Origin: Mesodorylaimus sp. YZB2_4
Lineage: Eukaryota > Nematoda > Enoplea > Dorylaimida > Dorylaimidae
Assembly (NCBI GenBank): GCA_030248295.1
Contig: JASANH010000666.1
Location: 62,001 to 126,000, forward strand
Length of the DNA stretch: 64,000 bases
Direction of reading: 5' to 3'
Shown here: positions 49-64,000 of the stretch, piece after piece
How positions within the stretch are numbered: the stretch's first letter is position 1
Layout: each line of letters starts with the position of its first letter
Notes under the pieces: generated by a model
Databases searched by the model: none
What the model was told of the DNA's origin: nothing
The model's input: the letters and a program-made list of their open reading frames with translations, nothing else
Position numbers and translations under genes: made by a program

Positions 49-3000
49 CAGTGTTGCCAGATGCCACACATGGAAAATCGCCAAACGAGCCTGAAAATCC
101 GCCAAAACCCGTCATTTCAAAATTTTAAAACCGCCAATAAATCCGCCACATCAAAAATTCTTTTCAAATGAAATTTCACGAAAAATATGCAAAAAAATCA
201 ACGCATTTCATACCAATGCCTCCAACGCATCAACAGCATCAAAAACATCATCAAAAATTAAATTTTCCACATCACTGATCTCAACGTTTTTATAAATATC
301 ACTGTTGAACAAGCTCAAAAAAACTTTGCAAGCTTCGAAACTAGACGATTTTACACCAAGAAATTTCAGTCCGAATCGAACTGCTAACACTGCTTCAACA
401 GTTTCACAAGCCAGTCGATTTCGAAGATTCGTTTTGACTAGTGCCATCGCAGAGAAAGCTCGTTCGACCGTCGCATTCGAAAATGGTAAGCAGAAAAGAT
501 TCAAAGCGAAAATTGCGATGTTGCCAAACCGTGGATTTCCAGCAGCATCTTTGTTCTCCAAAACTTCGATCCAAAATTGCACCGAATCTTTGTCCGACCG
601 ATCGTAGAACAGGTGTAGAGATTGAAATTAGTCGTACGAACTTTCGATCGATGGGGTTAACGAACGAAAACGTTGGAGTAACGGCACAATGTTCTCAGAC
701 TTTCCAATATTTGTTGGACTGAGAACTCGAGCAATCGAAATGTTCGTAAAAATTGCGGCAACCGATCCTGGACCTGAAAACTCAAATTTTTAATTTCATT
801 AGAGTAGAAGAAATATACAGAAATACCTGCTTTGCAGCCATAATTAAACATGATCGGCAGCGCTCCCATATGACATCTCGCATTGCTGGCTCGACGTTAT
901 TGATCAATGAAAGAAACTCGAATCCAAAGTCAACCATACTCGAAGCACTAAAATAAAAGTGTGTAGAAATTTTAAAACAACATATTAAAACTTCTAACCA
1001 ACAGTAATCTCCGAATTCAAAATCCGTTATATCAGTCTCCAATCGGTGATGCTTTTCCAATTGACTGGGCGAAACGAATTTGCGTAATAAACTGAAACAA
1101 AGAGAATTATTTGATTGAAAATCTAAAAAAATATAAGATTACCTGACATAAAACATGTCTAATTCGTTCATTAATTTTAAGACATCCGCATCTTCGCTTT
1201 GAAATAATAAATTCTTTTCCACGAACGGTTCGAGGAACCATCGGCAAAACGATAAGTAAATCTGAAAAAACAGAAATTAACGAAAACGTTTGATAAAAGG
1301 TATTGATGAAAGGTATTTAATAATACTCTATTTTGAGGATCCTTCATCATGTCGTATAATTGGCGAGCGGTAAATCGTTGCCGAGAATGCGCTTCGGATT
1401 TTTCTGAGCCAAAAAATTGAACGAGTTCGTCCCATTGCTTCAGTATTGCATCGATGCATTGGAATAAGGATAACCAACGAACGTCAGGTAATTTGAGAAT
1501 CTTCATTGACGCGGTACCATTGATGCTCTTGTAGAGCTGAAAAAATTAAATCATTTGATAAATGAAAAATTAATGAAAAAACGTACCTCCGCATATCGAT
1601 CTTTTCGACTTCTGCTCGTGCAAAAATATCCGTAAATCTCTTTGACCAGAGTTTCCAAATGCGATGGAAGTTCGTCGAAAGCATATTCCGCCGCCTTATG
1701 CAACGAGTGGCAAACGCATCTGACCAACACCAGGTTTTCTTGCTTTTCTTTGAGACGAGCGTAGACGCCTGATTTTTCGCCAACGAGAACATTTGCTCCA
1801 TCTGTCCCGAGGCCGATCAAATTGTTGATATTCAAGCCATCGTCTTGCAGAATATTCTAAATCGCTTACGTAATTGAATCGGCATCTTTTCCCTCCAGAC
1901 GTACAAGTCTGAAAAATGCAAAATTGAAATATTATAATAAAAATTAAAATAACAAGCTTACCTGTAAAACGTTGTGACCATTTTTCTTAGTTTGACCGAG
2001 AAATAACGAAGCACCAAGCAAAGCATGGGGCACGTCGAAACATCTGTCGATTCGTCGATGAGCAAAGAAAATTTTCCAGAGCCAAGATCGTCGATAATCA
2101 ATTTTCGAAATCCAACGCCAAGTACTCGACGAATTAATCTTCCGCATTTTGTTCGACCGAGCTAAAAATGAAAAAAATCAGTTCGGTTATTGATTAAAAA
2201 ATATTATTAAAATAAATTTAGTACCTTTATCTTGTTTACAATCGCATCCTTTTTAACTGCGGGATCGTTTTTTGTGACGGATTTGATCAAATCGACTAAA
2301 TCGTCAACTTGTCGAAATGCGATAGCCGATTCACAAATAAATGCAACAATTTTCAACTCGGATTTCTCCTGACCATCGGTGGATACGAATGAGCTGGTAA
2401 TTTTTAAGTTTTCCGTTATAATTTTTTGCGTCGTTGCCATCGCCTTTTCGTGTTTTGAAGTCGACGCATGAGCTTTTAAATCGTTCAATCTTGCTCCGAG
2501 TTCCGTTTTGCAGTATTTGCACCATGGTTTGTTCGAGTTTCTTTGGCTTCGCATTGGCCAACCTGGAAAAAAAGAGCTGGAAAGAAAATACATGAAATTA
2601 TGTTATATTTAATTACCTTTTAATTCTGGATAAGCTTCCCATTGTTTCTTGTACACTCGTTGGCCTTCGATACGCTTTTTCTTCACCGATTCACCAGAAT
2701 AATCAGCTTTACGTTTCGAATTGCTTCTTCGATCATCTTCCGTATTGTCCTTGTTTTCAGAAGTACTGCTGAGCGAGTCCACCAAAACGATGCTACGATT
2801 TCCTTCATCGCCGTCGCTTTTTTCAATTGCTTCGTCATTCATTACGAAGAAAACCGAACGATCGTATTCGACGATGTCGGACGGAATACTGAGATAAAAA
2901 CAAAAAATATGTAGAAAAACGAATTTATTTAAAAAATTATCTTTGGTTCCCAATCTTTGGTTTTGGCATGGCAATTTACATTCTTCATTCATTTTTGGTT

Positions 3001-3303
3001 TTGGTTGCGAAAAATACTTTCGCTTTTGTAGCAGACAATTGAAAATGTTATGTTATACTCAGAAAAGTGCCAGCGGTTAATTTAAATTGCATTTCTACAA
3101 CCTTTTAAATACTTTTTATAAAAAAAATGTTAATTTTAATTGCATTTTTTACTAATATGAGCAAATTTTTATAAAATCGCCACATTCCGTCACAAAATAG
3201 CATAGTCCGCCACAAAATCCGGCAGAACCTCATCCCGCCAAAACGCCCGCCATGAAGGTCCAAAAACCGCCAATGTGGCGGAAAACCGCCACATCTGGCA
3301 ACA
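49..3303 (-). mobile_element. hAT-family DNA transposon, copy 1 (decayed)
   Basis: The left end begins CAGTGTTGCCAGATG and the right end finishes with CATCTGGCAACAG, so the termini are inverted copies of one hAT-like end. Both subterminal regions are rich in CCGCCA/TGGCGG motifs (about 60-150 and 3,180-3,300). The interior encodes a fragmented minus-strand transposase with a BED finger and a hAT dimerisation domain. The left 8-bp flank is CTGATTAC, but the base run after the right end (TTTCCTGA) is not a duplicate of it, so no clean target-site duplication is present. A second copy of the same family lies at 32,102-35,446. Confidence 0.85.
208..2842 (-). pseudogene. hAT transposase (BED finger, DDE, hAT dimerisation), split by introns and frameshifts
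   Basis: On the minus strand the gene starts with an acidic/basic linker, followed by a BED-type zinc finger near 2,470-2,540 (WCKYC, then LKAHASTSKH). Next comes a conserved AFRQVDDLVDLIKS segment. The exon near 1,960-2,140 should carry the DEST catalytic region but is readable only in pieces. The segment near 1,570-1,835 (LIGLGTDGAN, CHSLHKAAEYAF) is well conserved. The C-terminal hAT dimerisation domain is at 208-582 (FCLPFSNATVERAFSAM). Several GT...AG intervals separate exons. Reading frames do not join without interruptions, so this copy is probably inactive. The domain order and motifs match the ZBED/ZMYM-like hAT transposases of animals. Confidence 0.8.
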
Positions 3304-3346
3304 GTTTCCTGAAATAAGAAACAAGTGATGTTTGGGCCAGCACACG

Positions 3347-4384
3347 CTACTTCCACATAAACAAAAATATTCTCACCATTAGAAACTTTTCCCAATTTGG
3401 TTTCGTCTCACTCTGCCAAAGAGCCAGGAGAATCGAGTTTTGAAATTTTGTTCTTATCACACGGGGCAATTCTGCAACGACTCCCAGCAAGGGCCAAAAC
3501 GATCCAGATTTTGCTTTCGTAAACTTGGCACCATCCGAGTTTATAACTAAATGAAGAACGAGCGAAAAACCATCAGGATTTGGGTATTTAGATCGATATA
3601 ATTCTCCGGTCAATAAATCAGTCAACACTTCACCATTCATGGCGGTAGCTGCAGAAATGTTGAGGTTGTCCAAAATTTTCTCACCGTAATTGCTTATAAT
3701 CATAACCAATTGCTTTTCGATGCTAAATACAGCAATATTGGCCGGTCTCGAATAACGTCCATCGCCTTTGCACGCATCAACGCAAGACTTGACAAATTTC
3801 CTATAACAGTCACCGAATATTTTCGACATCGACGAAAGAATCGTGAAGCGGTCATTGAGAACGTTACTAATAATCCGTTTCATCACTTTGATAGAGGCTG
3901 GACAGCGATTTGATGTTGGCATGATAAACTGGAACATTTTGCAAATACCATCTATCGCGGTGTCGGGCAAATTATGCGACCGCTGGTAGGCAATAACCAA
4001 ACAGCAAAAATCGTTCACTGAAAGTGGCGATGTGAATGGCTGCACGACTGAATAAATTGGAACAGGGGGAGCAATATCAAAATCATCGTCATCATCGTCA
4101 TCTTCATTAGAAATGTTCAATTTGTTCGAGAATGCAACGCGCAAATTTGGTGTGCATGATTCGCCAAATATAGAATTGTCAGGAGTTAAGGTAAATAAGG
4201 GCGCAACGAACTCATCCAGCGCTGAACTTCCACCATCGTCATCGTCGGTCTGATATTTTGGAATCGTTTCAAAATTCTCAGATTCGAATTGCCATGCAGC
4301 TTCAGGGAATGATGCAGCTTCATTTCGATGTTGCTGTAACAAGCGGCTGATGTGATAGTTTTTTCGCATTTTTGGTAATGACAT
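3347..4384 (-). CDS. TNP2/CACTA-like transposase-domain protein, N-terminal part
   Basis: This open frame of 345 codons has an N-terminal start MSLPKMRKNYH, an acidic segment near residue 95-110 (a run of Asp), and a C-terminal block reading LVINSDGAKFTKAKSGSFWP, then a variant of NELPP..R and ILLALWQSETKPNWEKFL. That block is the signature of the animal transposase-domain family related to plant TNP2 (CACTA/EnSpm), where it is normally followed by a long catalytic C-terminus. Here it stops within about 45 bp of the hAT right end, and a possible splice donor (GTGAGA) sits just after EKFL. The remaining catalytic portion is not in the window. It may have been displaced by the hAT insertion or may continue in exons off to the left. 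Confidence 0.6.
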   Translation of the reverse strand: MSLPKMRKNYHISRLLQQHRNEAASFPEAAWQFESENFETIPKYQTDDDDGGSSALDEFVAPLFTLTPDNSIFGESCTPNLRVAFSNKLNISNEDDDDDDDFDIAPPVPIYSVVQPFTSPLSVNDFCCLVIAYQRSHNLPDTAIDGICKMFQFIMPTSNRCPASIKVMKRIISNVLNDRFTILSSMSKIFGDCYRKFVKSCVDACKGDGRYSRPANIAVFSIEKQLVMIISNYGEKILDNLNISAATAMNGEVLTDLLTGELYRSKYPNPDGFSLVLHLVINSDGAKFTKAKSGSFWPLLGVVAELPRVIRTKFQNSILLALWQSETKPNWEKFLMVRIFLFMWK

Positions 4385-12595: not shown

Positions 12596-13453
12596 TTATT
12601 GGTTGTATGGACAGTTACCTTGAATACGTGGCTCTCGTCCAAACATGATCCTGTAGGGCGAGTACTTCAATGACGCCTGGATTGATGACCGATACGCAAA
12701 AAGGATGAATGGGAGAACAGTATCCCAAGACTGGTCATACTGTTTCATACAAATACCCAGCATGTTGCCTGGGACTTTGTTAGATCGTTCTGTCAACCCG
12801 TTGCACATGGGATGGTATGCGGTTGTGTTCTTTTTAGTGATATTGCAAAGCCTGCATACCTCCTGCATCACGCTGTTCAAAAACTCAGTGCCTCGATCTG
12901 ACACAAGCTCGTTGCAGCTGCCATATCGACACAAAATGTCGCGAATGAAGACAGCAGCTACTCTCTTCGCTTCTTTATTGGGGATTGGTGTTGCCTTAAC
13001 CCAGCGCGTGAAATAGTCCATGAAAACGATAATGTGCTGATTGCCTTGTTTTGTGGTTGGCAACGGCCCGAAAAGGTCTACTTTGAACCGCTCCCATTGT
13101 CCAGCGGTTGGAGGCAATGGGTGCAATGGTGAAACCTGCTTTTGCGTTGGGTCTCCAAACTGCGCACACAGAGGACACTGTTTGACGTAACGCTTGACAT
13201 CTTGAAAATATCCGTCCCAGTAGTATCGTTGTGCTATTTTGTCAAAGGTCGTTCCTACGCCAAAATGTGCCGCGAATGTATCGCTATGGCATTGATGTAG
13301 GATATCGCCTTTCATGCTGTGCGGGACAACTATTTGGAAAACTGGTTTGGCATTCTTGCTCCAGCGCATCAGATGGACCAAGATACCATCTTTCATTAAG
13401 TATCTCGGTTTCTCGAGCAGAAATTGTTTAGCCATATTCTCGTCCATTGGCAA
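12596..13453 (-). CDS. Gypsy integrase
   Basis: The 285-codon frame contains the N-terminal zinc-binding HHCC module (HQCHSDTFAAHFG ... CPLC), then the catalytic core with Asp in FKVDLFGPLPTTKQG, Asp in LVSDRGTEFLNSV and Glu in NGLTERSNK. It ends with the conserved block around YRSSIQASLKYSPYRIMFGR. These are the three catalytic acidic residues of a retroviral-type integrase, which inserts the cDNA copy into the host chromosome. The core is unbroken in this copy, although the flanking junctions are damaged. Confidence 0.9.
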   Translation of the reverse strand: MPMDENMAKQFLLEKPRYLMKDGILVHLMRWSKNAKPVFQIVVPHSMKGDILHQCHSDTFAAHFGVGTTFDKIAQRYYWDGYFQDVKRYVKQCPLCAQFGDPTQKQVSPLHPLPPTAGQWERFKVDLFGPLPTTKQGNQHIIVFMDYFTRWVKATPIPNKEAKRVAAVFIRDILCRYGSCNELVSDRGTEFLNSVMQEVCRLCNITKKNTTAYHPMCNGLTERSNKVPGNMLGICMKQYDQSWDTVLPFILFAYRSSIQASLKYSPYRIMFGREPRIQGNCPYNQ

Positions 13454-58532: not shown

Positions 58533-61113
58533 GTGCATTTCATTGGCCTATTTTCCCGCTTCGTCATCGTAGCCAATGATAAAGTCGAATCCATATCTAA
58601 TAACAGTCCAACCTCCGTCCATGACCGCCTGTCCATCTTGAAAACCTCGTTACAACAGCTCCTCCCACTTTTGTTAGCCGTCGTGAAATACGTACGAGGG
58701 CGTGTTGACCCGTTGTTGTTGTTGCGCATTCTCGTACGATCTATGCGCGCGCTGGATCTTTTTAGGGCCGGACAGGGTATCGCCACAAGTAAACTCTGGG
58801 AACGATTGACCAACTTTATGGCTTCAGGTCAGATACTGCAGCTGAGGATCCTGCTAACTGATTTCAGCCCCGATTCGGGTGACATTAGCGCCACGTATGA
58901 AGCAACGCGGGCGGATCCAGAAACATCGACAATACGCCAAAGATTCGGGCGGGTATCATCGAGAAAGGTGACGCCAAACAACAATTTGAAACAACCGAGT
59001 CCTAAGAAGAGAGAAGACAACCATGGACTCGATGAAAATAGCAAAGTTTTGAGTCCAGCTAGGCATGAAGAGTGAGATTGCGAATCCCAGATTTCAGGCA
59101 GGTAGCTTTTCATAGGTTTACTTCAGTCTCGTGGCAGACAATGAGGCGCAAGAAGTGAAAGAAAACGAAGAAGCTCGTCCTGTGGTGAATCTGACCATTC
59201 CAGGAAACAAGGCCGATTTACAAACACCAAAACCACCATTACGCAAGCGAGCACCGTCACCCGCTGCGACAGTCGTGGTAAGTCGCTTGCAGAGTGTTCT
59301 CGAGTCCATAATGAAACAAGTCATTTGCAGGTACTGGCAAAAAGTTTGATTAAAGTTTCGCCTTTTGGAACCAAGGAAAAGGCCTCGAGTCCCTCGTTCT
59401 CGACTCCTCGTTTGATGCCGACTAATCGAGGCAAGACACCGCAGGAAAGTGCCGTCAAGGTGGGTTGGTGGTCCGCATCTTAAAATAGAGGTGCGTGTTC
59501 GTACAATTAAGTGAAGAAGCGCGTGTTCGTCTGCGCCAGCCTTTGGCATCGGCAACGGCGAAACAAGAGGTAAAAATTAAACATTCGCGGATCCTGGCAC
59601 TCCCTTATGATTTTCGGGAAAGGGACCAGCCAACCACTAGGTCCGACTGATAAGACAATTATCGGTATTGGCCGATAACCGATTACGCAATTATCGGCCG
59701 ATAAAAACGATAATACTGATAAATTTTGAACGTGTGAAAACATCAAATTTTAGGGCGCGGTAGGTCAGCTCCTTGGGGTATGTCGGGATCACTTTTCTCA
59801 TGATCAGGATCAGGTTTTTTTGCATTTTTGCCTATGAACCTATTTTCTCGCTAAAGCACACTATAGTAATCCAGGTTTTTTAAAGCTTTTTCTTAGACCG
59901 ATTTTCGATCATTATGAGCCTATAACTGACAGTCGGTGCCGTTGCCCATTCATAATGTATATGCCTAGCAAAGTAAGTGGGGTAAAGCAAATAAACAATT
60001 TTTCAACTTTGATTTTTTCCAGCCTTGCAAATTTGTCATCTGAACCTGGTGCCTTTGCGACGTTGATACAATGTATTTGTTCAATGCTCAGGTTTATCAC
60101 TGCAAGAAAACAGCAGCTGCCAACGACACAGCAACTGCTGATCGATCATTTGGAGAACAGGTATTTTGATAGCCTTGATTGTAAGAAATAGCTATCAATC
60201 TCAATTGTTCTCAATTTCAGGTGGTGCAAACGCTGATGGCCCCACTCTAAAACAATGGGCGTACGCTGTACACTGATAATTTCTTCACCTCAGTCGAGCT
60301 AGCGAACAAACTGTATGAAGAGCGGACGTATGTAGTGGGGGGCAGTTCGACCACATAGGAAAAAAATTTTAAAGGATTTCACAGTGGAGCCCATCAGCCT
60401 GAATGAAAGTCGATTCCTATTTTCTGAAGGAAAGACGCTCCTGAGATACCTAGCCAAGGAGAAGAAACAAAGTTTCTTGTTGTCGACGATGCATCATTCA
60501 AAGCAGATCAAAAAAATCTCTCAGGATCCGGCTTCTAACGATGAAGAATCCGATCATGATCAAGACGGACGAGGCAGCCGAGGACGGGAAAGCCGTGGAC
60601 GAGGCGATTGTGGACGTAGTGGTCTTAGATGTGGTGGTCGTGGATGCCTATCAAAAAATACTCAGAACTGCGGAGCCAACCAGCCATCAGAAAAGGTCGG
60701 GCGCCTTAAAATTAGACCCACTAAGGAAGCCTGTGACAAGCGGAACAGACTCACTGGCTGGTCTATTTTATCCACGATTTTTATTAAATACTTCCTCTTA
60801 TAGGTTGGAACTGCCTGCATTGCAGCGCAGCAATACGTCGCCGCTGTTACAACGCGCATCCCGCGAACAGGAGACAAACTCCAACGGGAATAACGACGAT
60901 GACGACAAGGAGACCAGCCCGAGGAGATCGTCCAGAGATGTATCTATTAGAGAAAAAGTCAAGAGAGGACTGTGCCGTGACCAAGTTCGTCTGGAACAGC
61001 CACCGAGCCAACCTGCGGTTGTGGTCGTTTTTAGATTAGCAGGCTGGTGTAACGGAAAATTGGTTCAGCGGGCAATAAACGGCATGCATCTACCAGTTAG
61101 CGTATGTCTTTAA
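58533..61113 (+). CDS. Multi-exon gene of unknown function, disordered C-terminus
   Basis: The first long exon (58,533-59,075) encodes a helical, Leu/Arg-rich region (SLQQLLPLLLAVVKYVRGRV, LLRILVRSMRALDLF) then a Ser/Lys/Pro-rich tail. Later coding segments are 59,131-59,280 (DNEAQEVKENEEARPVVNL, KPPLRKRAPSPAATVV, GTAAGT donor), 59,331-59,459 (LIKVSPFGTKEKASSPSFST), about 59,491-59,570 (LSEEARVRLRQPLASATAKQ, GTAAAA donor), and, across an interval that contains a piggyBac remnant, 60,803-61,113 (LELPALQRSNTSPLLQRASR, then Asn/Asp-rich). The serine/proline-rich composition suggests a nuclear or cytoskeletal scaffold. Exon linkage is inferred. Confidence 0.4.
59655..59720. repeat. Palindromic TTATCGGCCGATAA cluster
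   Basis: The segment contains attatcggtattggccgataa followed by attatcggccgataa, overlapping inverted copies of TTATCGG/CCGATAA that could form a short hairpin. It lies in the intron-like interval before the piggyBac remnant. Confidence 0.6.
60219..60520 (+). mobile_element. piggyBac transposase remnant
   Basis: The frame reads VVQTLMAPL, a TAA, NNGRTLYTDNFFTSVELANK and LYEERTYVVG, the block around the second catalytic Asp of piggyBac transposases. After a shift it continues with LNESRFLFSEGKTLLRYLAK and QSFLLSTMHHSK, the next conserved region. Flanking sequence (RG-rich GRGSRGRESRGRGDCGR after 60,560) is not piggyBac. No TTAA-flanked ends were found, so only an internal fragment remains. 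Confidence 0.8.
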
Positions 61114-61183
61114 ATCGATAGTGAACGGTGCACTCCTACCACGTCGACCGCAGTCCCGATCACATATCTTGCACGCCTACCGC

Positions 61184-61196
61184 CCCCCCCCCCCAA
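61184..61196. repeat. Poly-C run
   Basis: A run of about 13 C, likely length-variable; it lies just past the 3' side of the RING gene. Confidence 0.75.
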
Positions 61197-61334
61197 CTGT
61201 ACCTCGTCTTTGTTTATTCTTGTACGGCTACGGCGCCCGATTCGCTGGCTACAGGTGGCGCGACGAAGTCCTCGAAACAGTCATCGTTTCGGTCTTCTAA
61301 TGGGCGTGAGTTCTTTGAAATGATTTCGAACTCG

Positions 61335-62024
61335 TTATTTAACTCTTCCAGCATTTCGTGCTCCATAGCGGAAGGCATTACACGAAGCGACGTCGTTTTC
61401 CGCAATGACGATTCTATTGTGAGCCACCGATATATCGACAAGTGGAAACGTGGAATTGCACATCGGGCATTTGAATTCGCCTCGTAGTTTGTATCTCGAC
61501 GTCGATGCCGAATTTCGCAAAGCGCATCTTTTGCAGCCAATTATCTTGGGGCATTGGCGGCAGACTTGCGGGCTGCGAGCAAATGACGTGCAGTAGGAAC
61601 ACTCCAACTGCAGCACTTTTTTCGTTAGCCAACCTGAAACATAGAGATGTCATTAAAGTATGCGTTGGGTCGTCTCAGATCTCCTTTTCAGTTCTCCCTG
61701 GTTTCTCCCCGCTTCTTCCTAGCCAGTCCAGCACAAATTCTCATGAAACTCACGATTCATCTCCTCGGATTGTTTTTTAAAATATTGTTTTCTCATCTCC
61801 ATAAATGCGCCCTCCAGCTTGTCCAGTTTCGCGTCGATGTTTTGTTGTGTGCTCGATTTTCGAGTGTCGGCTGTCAATTGCACTTGTTTTGGTTTAGTCC
61901 AGACGCACCAGACGCAATCTGTGTGTGCACCTGTTTTTCCTTTAGTCAGAATTAGTTCATGCTTTTTTATGCTTTCATTCCTGCCTACATCGCCAGCGCC
62001 ATAAATCCTGGGCTCATTAGTCAT
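61335..62024 (-). CDS. Two-exon RING-like zinc-finger protein, 189 aa
   Basis: Exon 1 (62,024-61,754) starts MTNEPRIYGAGDVG, contains a coiled-coil segment (QNIDAKLDKLEGAFMEMRKQ) and ends at a GTGAGT donor. Exon 2 (61,633-61,335) follows a tttcag acceptor, and the split Arg codon joins in frame. It encodes a cysteine finger C-X2-C-X9-C-X2-C-X5-C-X2-C-X18-C-X2-C at residues 102-149 (LECSYCTSFARSPQVCRQCP through FKCPMCN), as in RING-type E3 ubiquitin ligases but with Cys at the usual His position. It ends NAGRVK plus TAA. In another frame, 61,378-61,214 encodes an acidic stretch (HEMLEELNNEFEIISKNSRP) that may be a displaced longer C-terminus after a frameshift near 61,390. Confidence 0.6.
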
Positions 62025-62754
62025 AGCCTATTCATGGTAACATAATAGTTTCCTTGTAGCATATGACTAAGCCACGCCCATGATGTCATGTCTATTTCGC
62101 GTGTGCATTGTGCAATTCATACTGGAAGTGGATTAGCCACGCCTTTACAGGGCTGCGAGAACTCCTGGATATAAGGGCTTGCACTTGTATGGTCTGGGTT
62201 CTTTTTGGCTAGCTCAACTTTAAAGTAAAGACTCCATTAGTTGCACAAGTCAGGCCACGATACAACATGTTTCTATTCAACTCTTCAAGCGCTCCCGCCC
62301 CATCTTCCTGTATCTCCTCCATCTCTTTAATCGCGTCATCCAAGGATAACTATTGTTTCACAGCTTGTTTGCCTGTAACGGACGACAAGGCGTCAGTAGG
62401 TTGGGCAATACACTAAACTGTGATTGTTGTCCACTTCTCTCTGGTTGTCCTGGGTTCTCGCATTTTTTGTTAGACTGTGGGCCACTATCGACCAATACGC
62501 CAATCGATTGTTGGCTCTTGAATTCAAATTTCCCGGCTCCATTAACTGGCGAATGATAACGTTTTCCCTTTCCGGCGCGGGCTCCCTGTCCTGTTTCTGC
62601 TTGGGACTGGAGTAGTATAAGCGTACCCCTCTTCATGAGTCACTTAGGGCACCAATGGTTAATGTGAGTGTAAAGCGGATGGATGAAAAGACTGTGAGTG
62701 AGTTACCCTAAGCTGCTGCCTAGCTAAGTGACAAATAAGTATTGTATATGGCCA
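62025..62754. other. Gene-free interval
   Basis: Short interrupted frames only; contains a Ser/Ala/Pro-type frame near 62,268-62,420 with no recognisable domain. Confidence 0.35.
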
Positions 62755-63175
62755 CTTTGTTGATGTGCAGGTGCATTACACTAGGATATTATTTGTTGAT
62801 GCACAGGTACATTACAGTAGGATCTATTTTCTTGATGTGCAGGTAGATTACAGTACGATATAGTTTCTTGATGAGGAGTACATTACAGTACAGTAATATA
62901 TATTTTGTTGATGTGCAGGTTCATTACACTAGGATATATGTTTTTGATGTGCAGGTACATTACAGTAGGATGTATTTTGATCTTTTTTAGGATTTATTGT
63001 GTTGATGAGTAGTACATTACAGTAGGATAAATTTTTTTGTTAATGAGCAAGTACTCGATACTTTGTTGATGTGCAGGTACATTACAGTAGAATTATTTTG
63101 ATGAACAAGTACATTACAGTAAGACTTTGTTGATAAGCAAGTACATTACAGTAGGATGAACTGTATTTATTCGCA
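62755..63175. repeat. Degenerate minisatellite, units of about 30-45 bp, roughly 11 copies
   Basis: Consensus word TTGATGTGCAGGTACATTAC followed by AGTAGGATATATTTT, repeated with frequent changes (gatgaacaagtacattacagtaagac, gatgagtagtacattacagtagg and others). The variation shows an older array than the 33-bp minisatellite at 47.2 kb. It ends 270 bp before the first of the capsid-associated reading frames. Confidence 0.85.
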
Positions 63176-63448
63176 GGTTCAGTATTATATTTTTGTTTTA
63201 TCCGTCTTTTTTAATTTCTGTCTGCTTCATGTGTGTGTGTGTCTGACCACAAGAAATTGTATTTGAATGAAATGATACAACATTCAAATTTTCTGAATTT
63301 CTGCGTCTCGCCCTCAATCACGCTTACAAGTCTTAAATTTTGTCATTTTTGATTAGCATCATGCCCTGTTCTCCCATTCTCACATTTTTTGAGTAGAAAA
63401 GTGCAATGTAGAACTAAAAACAAAGATTTTCAATGAGTTTTGAGTGTC

Positions 63449-63610
63449 ATGGCAGATCAGCCACGCGCTAGAAGTAACCGCCCTGTTGATCGATTATCTT
63501 TGTTCTCTTTGTTGGGAAAGGCTGGTCCAGCTAGGAAAAGTCTTCAACAAAAGTCCAAGAAACGTAAAAGCCAGAAAAATAAGAAGATCCAGTCAAAAAA
63601 GAGGAAATGA
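63449..63610 (+). CDS. Small lysine-rich protein (53 aa) overlapping the capsid-like gene
   Basis: Starts MADQPRARSNRPVDRLSLFS and ends in a highly basic tail (SLQQKSKKRKSQKNKKIQSK, then KRK) plus TGA at 63,608-63,610. Length and composition are those of small DNA-condensing core peptides found beside capsid genes in adenovirus-like and Polinton/adintovirus-like genomes; the similarity is compositional only. The stop overlaps the start of the next frame in ATGA, a coupling arrangement common in compact viral genomes and rare in animal nuclear genes. No intron signals are present. The basic tail could also act as a nuclear localisation signal. Confidence 0.6.
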   Translation: MADQPRARSNRPVDRLSLFSLLGKAGPARKSLQQKSKKRKSQKNKKIQSKKRK

Positions 63611-64000
63611 GTCGGTTAGATACAACGGTCGACCTAGACGTTTTCTCAGAACCGCCAGAAGAACTCAGTATCGCTGAAAGTAGGATAGAAACCATTTCTG
63701 TCAATCTACCCTTACCTAACAATGACGTCAATTCACCATTGGAATTTCGCATACCAAGTGTTCCTACGTGGTTTACTGATTTGTCGCCCACCCTCCTGGA
63801 AGTGCACATGAAAATCCAATATGCGGCTGATAAAGAGGCCGATAAAGGTATCTCAAAAACGAAACAGATTGGTCTGGTGCCGAATGTGTTAATGTCCATG
63901 TTCTCTGGTGTCACTTTTTTGTTCAATAACGAAATGATACTCCAAAGCAGCAACTGCTCGCCATGGAGCGCTTACTTGGACGTGCTGGCTGGCTGCCCTT
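63607..64000 (+). CDS. Polinton/adintovirus-like major capsid protein, N-terminal part (runs off the window)
   Basis: The frame is open from ATG (63,607) to the window edge for 131 codons without a stop. It starts MSRLDTTVDLDVFSEPPEE, then has a beta-rich region (ISVNLPLPNNDVNSPLEFRI, PTWFTDLSPTLLEVHMKIQY), an insertion with DKEADKG, and VPNVLMSMFSGVTFLFNNEM then SAYLDVLAGCP. The order of strand-rich blocks, with the pattern tLLeV..ki, a V.N.l.S.FS.V...NN segment and a Tyr-X-X-L...LL-type helix, corresponds to the first jelly roll of the double-jelly-roll capsid proteins of Polinton/Maverick elements and the related family found in many invertebrate genomes (including the nematode F54H12.2-type proteins). 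The assignment rests on pattern recognition of a partial protein. Unlike almost everything else in this window it shows no stop or frameshift. Confidence 0.65.
   Translation, partial: MSRLDTTVDLDVFSEPPEELSIAESRIETISVNLPLPNNDVNSPLEFRIPSVPTWFTDLSPTLLEVHMKIQYAADKEADKGISKTKQIGLVPNVLMSMFSGVTFLFNNEMILQSSNCSPWSAYLDVLAGCP

Follow-up and report, generated by a model that had tools for sequence, protein, structure and literature searches.

What kind of element do two coupled open frames at the very end of a DNA stretch belong to, and is it still alive? The question is raised by a 64,000-nucleotide stretch of contig JASANH010000666.1 from the nematode Mesodorylaimus sp. YZB2_4 (C234:62001-126000 within a 145-Mb assembly; "the window" below means this whole analysed stretch), at whose right edge a short lysine-rich frame runs into a longer one. 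An earlier note on this DNA had taken the pair for an intact capsid module, either under selection or recently arrived. Having also read the DNA to the right of the edge, we consider it highly probable that the window edge holds the left part of a Polinton (Maverick) copy that is decayed and non-autonomous and belongs to a multi-copy family in this nematode genome. The evidence consists of sequence homology, the fold predicted for a closely related protein, the genes linked to the capsid gene in sibling copies, stops in the window copy and a derivative structure that it shares with other copies.

The Frames at the Window Edge and Their Continuation

The two frames are the following:
63449..63610, + strand: gene for a small basic protein, with 53 codons before its TGA; 19 of the 53 residues are K or R
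63607..64000, + strand: 5' part of a predicted double-jelly-roll major capsid protein gene; past the edge, the frame carries two in-frame stops and is followed by a broken packaging-ATPase gene

Their overlap is as the earlier note described it: the lysine-rich frame starts with the ATG at 63449, and its TGA (63608-63610) lies within the ATGA at 63607-63610, where the second frame of at least 131 codons begins. The latter is open from 63607 to 63999, which represents the N-terminal 131 residues of a capsid protein that counts 432 residues in its unbroken copies. The module is, nonetheless, not uninterrupted. A first stop is found at codon 144 (window-scale 64036-64038, 36 bases past the edge), a second one at codon 242, which is position 243 of the reference. 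The ATPase frame that follows the capsid gene (L009, from 2915-3415 onwards) is broken too; despite its two stops, the capsid frame remains collinear with the unbroken copies up to the same end. The frames look intact because the window ends just before the first stop, and one has to keep in mind that apparent intactness near the edge of a window may be an effect of the edge. With these stops and the broken ATPase gene, recent arrival finds no support for the window copy. The earlier note had opposed to its own reading a frame that ends quickly with no other Polinton gene within 20 kb; the frame does end quickly, but the broken ATPase gene follows it, and a separate element on the opposite strand lies about 14-17 kb to the right. 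As for the genes expected to the right, the ATPase gene is there in its broken form, and no match to an integrase, a polymerase or an adenain-type protease is listed near the window copy.

Identification of the Capsid Protein

A fold model was made from P0001, a full-length homologue at 70% identity, and it matches the double-jelly-roll capsids of iridovirus, PBCV-1, Sputnik and mavirus. On this model, the second frame is predicted to encode a double-jelly-roll major capsid protein of the Polinton/adintovirus-like kind, in agreement with the earlier call. This identity rests on the predicted fold, because sequence searches (Pfam, PHROGs, NCBIfam and PDB) gave nothing significant. The lack of a double-jelly-roll match, which the earlier note would have taken as refuting its reading, did not come about, since the fold matches. 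IMG/VR was scanned with the window piece, an entire capsid protein and P0007, and no relative turned up. Within the genome, the second frame has 122 matches, some of them pieces of one copy; with this number and the recurring arrangement described below, the frame pair is therefore more than chance.

Full Elements Elsewhere in the Genome

The gene order in C255 and C713 is integrase, a 128-residue protein, basic protein, capsid and ATPase; in C713, where the reading went beyond this block, the ATPase is followed by a 160-residue frame and then a convergent polymerase. As the integrase frame is interrupted in both, neither is a fully intact element. Linkage to the ATPase was examined for 71 of the 122 capsid matches, including all 26 whose frame runs open for 398 codons or more with no stop in the matching stretch. 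A same-strand ATPase match lies 0.9-2.6 kb downstream in 22 of these 26 and in 48 of the 71 overall; three of the 22 linked ATPase matches carry stops (C216, C964 and C410), and, among the 26 open capsid matches, those of C846 and C96 have a frame that breaks further on. PF04665 (Pox_A32-type) is present in 14 of 30 ATPase homologues, with direct Pfam scores below the cut-off, and the capsid homologue P0001 sits on a 4434-base contig, as does the ATPase P0012, probably on the same one. Judged by homology, an A32/FtsK-HerA-type packaging ATPase adjoins the capsid gene in this family.

Among the matches listed, the integrase gene, whose product has a chromodomain at its C-terminal end, stands directly upstream in C713, C604, C446, C579, C657, C162, C255 and C216. 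PF03175 scores above its cut-off at 58 of 62 places (26.1 bits in C713) and in 0 of 14 control genomes; in C713, C750 and C388 its matches lie in convergent orientation with the ATPase, and likewise, below the cut-off, in C604, again among the matches listed. With the motifs NSxYG and DTDS seen by eye, the family polymerase is a predicted family-B DNA polymerase. Integrase, ATPase and polymerase genes do accompany the capsid gene, then, in sibling elements and not all of them in the window copy. The 128-residue protein, encoded between integrase and basic protein, one gene away from the capsid gene, is by its position probably the penton.

Uncorrected pairwise ratios of non-synonymous to synonymous substitution rates (dN/dS) among the other open capsid copies range from 0.05 to 0.51, the highest with C410 (C255-C713, 0.069; C789-C225, 0.050), so that the capsid protein is conserved within the family. 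The genome, thus, holds a large, partly conserved set of Polinton capsid operons.

The Small Basic Gene

Fourteen first-clade copies were examined, among them two local duplicates of the window copy; C789 was not used. In 13 of the 14, the stop of the upstream frame sits at the ATGA position, the exception being C96, where it is shifted off; this overlap of the basic gene with the capsid gene is a stable feature of one clade. A whole Met-started open reading frame (ORF) is present in 10 of the 13, the one in C657 being cut by the locus edge and those in C861- and C846 having no Met in frame. The second clade has a longer basic frame, with a deeper overlap in some copies, and shares a PVxRLxL-type N-terminal stretch (by eye). 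The uncorrected ratio of non-synonymous to synonymous differences per site (pN/pS) is 0.24-0.38 in five of six pairs among C255, C713, C216 and C861, the copy from C861 being one with a stop in its capsid frame; the sixth pair shows 0 synonymous and 4 non-synonymous changes. Between the window's basic frame and its two local duplicates, the changes are also 0 synonymous and 4 non-synonymous, which counts against selection on this frame. From its composition, the basic protein is probably a DNA-condensing core protein.

A Probable Deletion Subfamily with Terminal Repeats

To the left of the basic gene, two further regions are relevant:
62659..63292, + strand: left terminal-inverted-repeat region of the deletion derivative, mostly an approximately 36-bp minisatellite (rows 62756-62971 and 63062-63154); 62659 is the start of homology with C745, not a mapped outer end
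63293..63448, + strand: region upstream of the basic ORF, conserved in related copies; homology with copies showing no minisatellite match begins at 63296-63391

The left repeat region is common to C41, C745 and C258 at 84-93%, and in these three, as in the window copy, the basic and capsid genes come immediately after the minisatellite-bearing left part. An inverted version of the region's inner part stands at the right ends on C745, C312, C466, C41, C35, C365 and C354, and in all seven the inverted repeat ends at the base matching 63292; on C234, an inverted match (134782-134990) extends further, to the base matching 63365. On this pattern, the derivative subfamily has terminal inverted repeats. 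A 1.4-kb region to the right of the ATPase is shared over its whole length with C745, C41, C312 and C466 (90-92%) and partly matched in C35, C365, C354 and C258 (75-91%).

We grouped as window-type 13 contigs with higher identity over longer stretches (78-100%): C234, C745, C41, C258, C846, C96, C365, C161, C157, C169, C754, C354 and C208; C678, C349, C110 and C149, whose matches have similar identity but are short, were not counted in. These 13 contigs have no integrase, 128-residue protein or PF03175 match among the matches listed, apart from a second-clade element near the end of contig C234 and a piece of the 128-residue protein on C208, about 18 kb from the capsid piece. Stops or frame breaks occur in all six window-type copies sampled (C234, C41, C96, C745, C258 and C846). 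The window copy most likely belongs, to judge from these alignments, to a deletion subfamily that would need help to move.

The same terminal repeats bracket a 1114-codon open PF03175 frame at C773:11079-20641, with no capsid, ATPase or integrase among the matches listed. At C35:616-2503, an element of about 1.9 kb is made up of both repeats plus a piece of the 1.4-kb region and resembles a miniature derivative.

Selection on the Window Copy

The null expectation came from 128 non-coding differences counted locally over 1438 sites (transition/transversion rate ratio 4.6), which give an expected synonymous share of 0.299. On the window branch, the capsid frame has 10 synonymous and 21 non-synonymous changes (omega-like ratio 0.90, p = 0.45); the corresponding numbers are 9 and 19 for C745 (0.90, p = 0.47), 6 and 5 for C41 (0.36, p = 0.077) and 22 and 24 for C258 (0.47, p = 0.008). 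The ATPase frame has 7 and 11 changes in the window copy (0.63, p = 0.24) and 22 synonymous and 26 non-synonymous in all four copies (0.48, p = 0.0088). The changes of the window copy fit neutrality, and nothing shows the selection that had been suggested for it; some constraint did act somewhere in the history of the subfamily. First dN/dS values of 0.22-0.47 for window-type copies resembled relaxed selection; against the local non-coding null, the window branch is neutral. C41 was excluded from the 115-codon table, where in-frame length differences produce 161-164 apparent changes.

Weighing the Explanations

In a full element, the polymerase would copy the linear DNA, presumably by protein priming, and the integrase would insert it, while the capsid protein, the basic protein in its presumed core role and the ATPase would build and fill a particle. 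The subfamily would have kept the terminal repeats, basic protein, capsid and ATPase and lost the segments with integrase/128-residue protein and polymerase; because of this loss, the window copy would have required a full element to mobilise it in trans. On this reading it is now dead, with its capsid stops, broken ATPase and neutral substitutions, and its 5' part was probably duplicated nearby later.

Several observations weigh against this reading. The lack of significant capsid matches in the four sequence searches is one; the integrase core has no rve match either, its D,D,E having been read by eye. Isolated polymerase pieces score 25.7 and 25.3 bits against a Pfam cut-off of 25.8, and a 749-residue polymerase piece has no match in PDB or in the search that gave the chromodomain. 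No penton was identified, the 128-residue protein having neither a homologue nor a domain match. No adenain protease was found with the capsid family, PF00770 being the only protease family searched; its matches at three places (C162, C23 and C108) are never beside a close capsid copy. The absence of integrase and polymerase near the window copy holds among the matches listed and is to that extent incomplete. Finally, the capsid frames of the four derivative copies, when pooled, have 47 synonymous and 69 non-synonymous changes (0.63, p = 0.0096), that is, fewer non-synonymous ones than neutrality predicts.

This last signal, together with that of the ATPase, is what speaks for a working satellite, that is, a capsid-plus-ATPase derivative whose capsid genes are under selection and which borrows integrase and polymerase from full elements; the polymerase-only element between the same repeats on C773 would be its complement, among the matches listed. 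The signal comes mainly from C258 and C41, however, and could stem from an earlier period within a full-length parent, from gene conversion or from a mutation spectrum drawn from just 128 differences, and the right side of C258 is matched in part only; we regard the satellite as rather unlikely. Slightly less likely still is a wider version, in which the Polinton population has split into capsid-and-packaging-only and polymerase-only elements with common terminal repeats, the capsid-only line spreading as a satellite with its virion genes selected until copies, including that of the window, died. If true, a satellite would mean an integrated element family that keeps virion genes while losing those for replication and integration. 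A recently arrived or selected intact virus-like element could invoke the 53- and 131-codon frames open within the window and the open, conserved sibling copies (dN/dS 0.07 for C255-C713 and 0.05 for C789-C225), but it is refuted for the window copy by the two capsid stops and the broken ATPase, unless the stops are assembly errors, and both the damage in six of six sampled window-type copies and the neutral window branch go the same way; we hold it to be very improbable. Improbable in the extreme is a capsid gene domesticated by the host: the many copies in one genome and the conserved basic-plus-capsid arrangement would suit it, but genes of mobile elements and terminal repeats accompany the copies, and that of the window is broken. 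The preferred reading remains the decayed, non-autonomous Polinton copy.

Later Duplications, Neighbours and Other Observations

The 5' part of the window copy, up to capsid codon 115, recurs at 98% identity inverted at C234:129178-129785 and direct within 131154-133724. Arms of 1.57 kb at C234:122968-124531 (window 60968-62531) and 136540-138106 are inverted and 98.3% identical; the repeated 5' part and the arms represent either a local duplication after insertion or a piece of a larger nested element. Within window 60968-62531, a minus-strand frame resembles a cysteine-rich zinc-binding protein (by eye). The second-clade Polinton element to the right of the window lies at C234:139657-142639 (L010, minus strand); its ATPase frame is open over 249 codons and its capsid gene broken, and it also has a basic ORF, a protein similar to the 128-residue one and an integrase end. 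At window 12656-12907, on the minus strand, there is a weak match (25%, E 1e-4) to a Polinton integrase, perhaps of another integrase-bearing element.

Elsewhere, C162:15563-28680 holds a distant Polinton lineage with an adenain-type protease (PF00770), relatives of the integrase and ATPase at 38% and 32%, and PF03175 matches within 13 kb. Beside the C713 element (L037, C713:13176-15000, minus strand), fragments were seen by eye of a second Polinton capsid protein, a more typical one, and of a penton-like protein; terminal repeats sought between the two pieces of C713 were not found. Near the capsid relic of C96, two related open frames resemble fucosyltransferases by eye (L016, C96:187001-197000). 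PF01060, a nematode family, has 27 matches in this genome and none in 14 control genomes, among which there may be no animal; this points to a nematode host. An insect-cuticle family matched neither this genome nor any control. The SL1 spliced leader gave 0 exact matches, and no typical chromadorean leader was seen.

Capsid-ATPase blocks form inverted pairs on L024 (C861), L038/L039 (C657) and L040 (C764), with arms about 97-98% identical, and 10 of 11 neighbouring pairs among the 71 examined capsid matches are in opposite orientation. These pairs are possibly misassemblies of two haplotypes, since the arms on C861, C657 and C764 reach the contig end; alternatively, a linear genome may have been copied by snap-back.

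Comparison with Known Systems

The element is of a known kind, a Polinton, with many copies, of which that of the window is a broken remnant. The Polinton gene set, as given in PMC11071308, comprises polymerase, integrase, protease, ATPase and capsid proteins. Like Polintons/Mavericks (Polintoviricetes), the present family combines a predicted capsid fold, packaging ATPase, putative chromodomain integrase and family-B polymerase in one multi-copy element; a small gene lies one gene upstream of its capsid gene, the position that PMC4028283 gives as the commoner one for the penton PX in Polintons and that the 128-residue protein occupies here. Unlike them, it has a capsid protein of about 432 residues and neither an identified penton nor protease. 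The window copy departs further from a complete Polinton, its capsid frame not being open and integrase and polymerase not being found in it, among the matches listed.

Adintoviruses/MELD viruses are defined, in PMC11071296, by a PolB with an OTU-like domain, a BLASTp-recognisable hexon and an rve integrase with a C-terminal chromodomain. The present integrase shares this chromodomain, though its core lacks an rve match, and the capsid fold matches one protein of an adintovirus and one, of 420 residues, of a MELD virus, each at 11% identity. The virophages mavirus and Sputnik, whose hosts are protist-giant-virus systems, differ, with a capsid identity of 8-10%. Repeated polinton incursions in nematodes were reportedly described by Jeong et al. 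in 2023. Another nematode, Romanomermis culicivorax, carries 6.5 Mb of multi-copy Polintons, according to PMC10879605, and the present family, likened here by description, is similarly a multi-copy Polinton family in a nematode genome.
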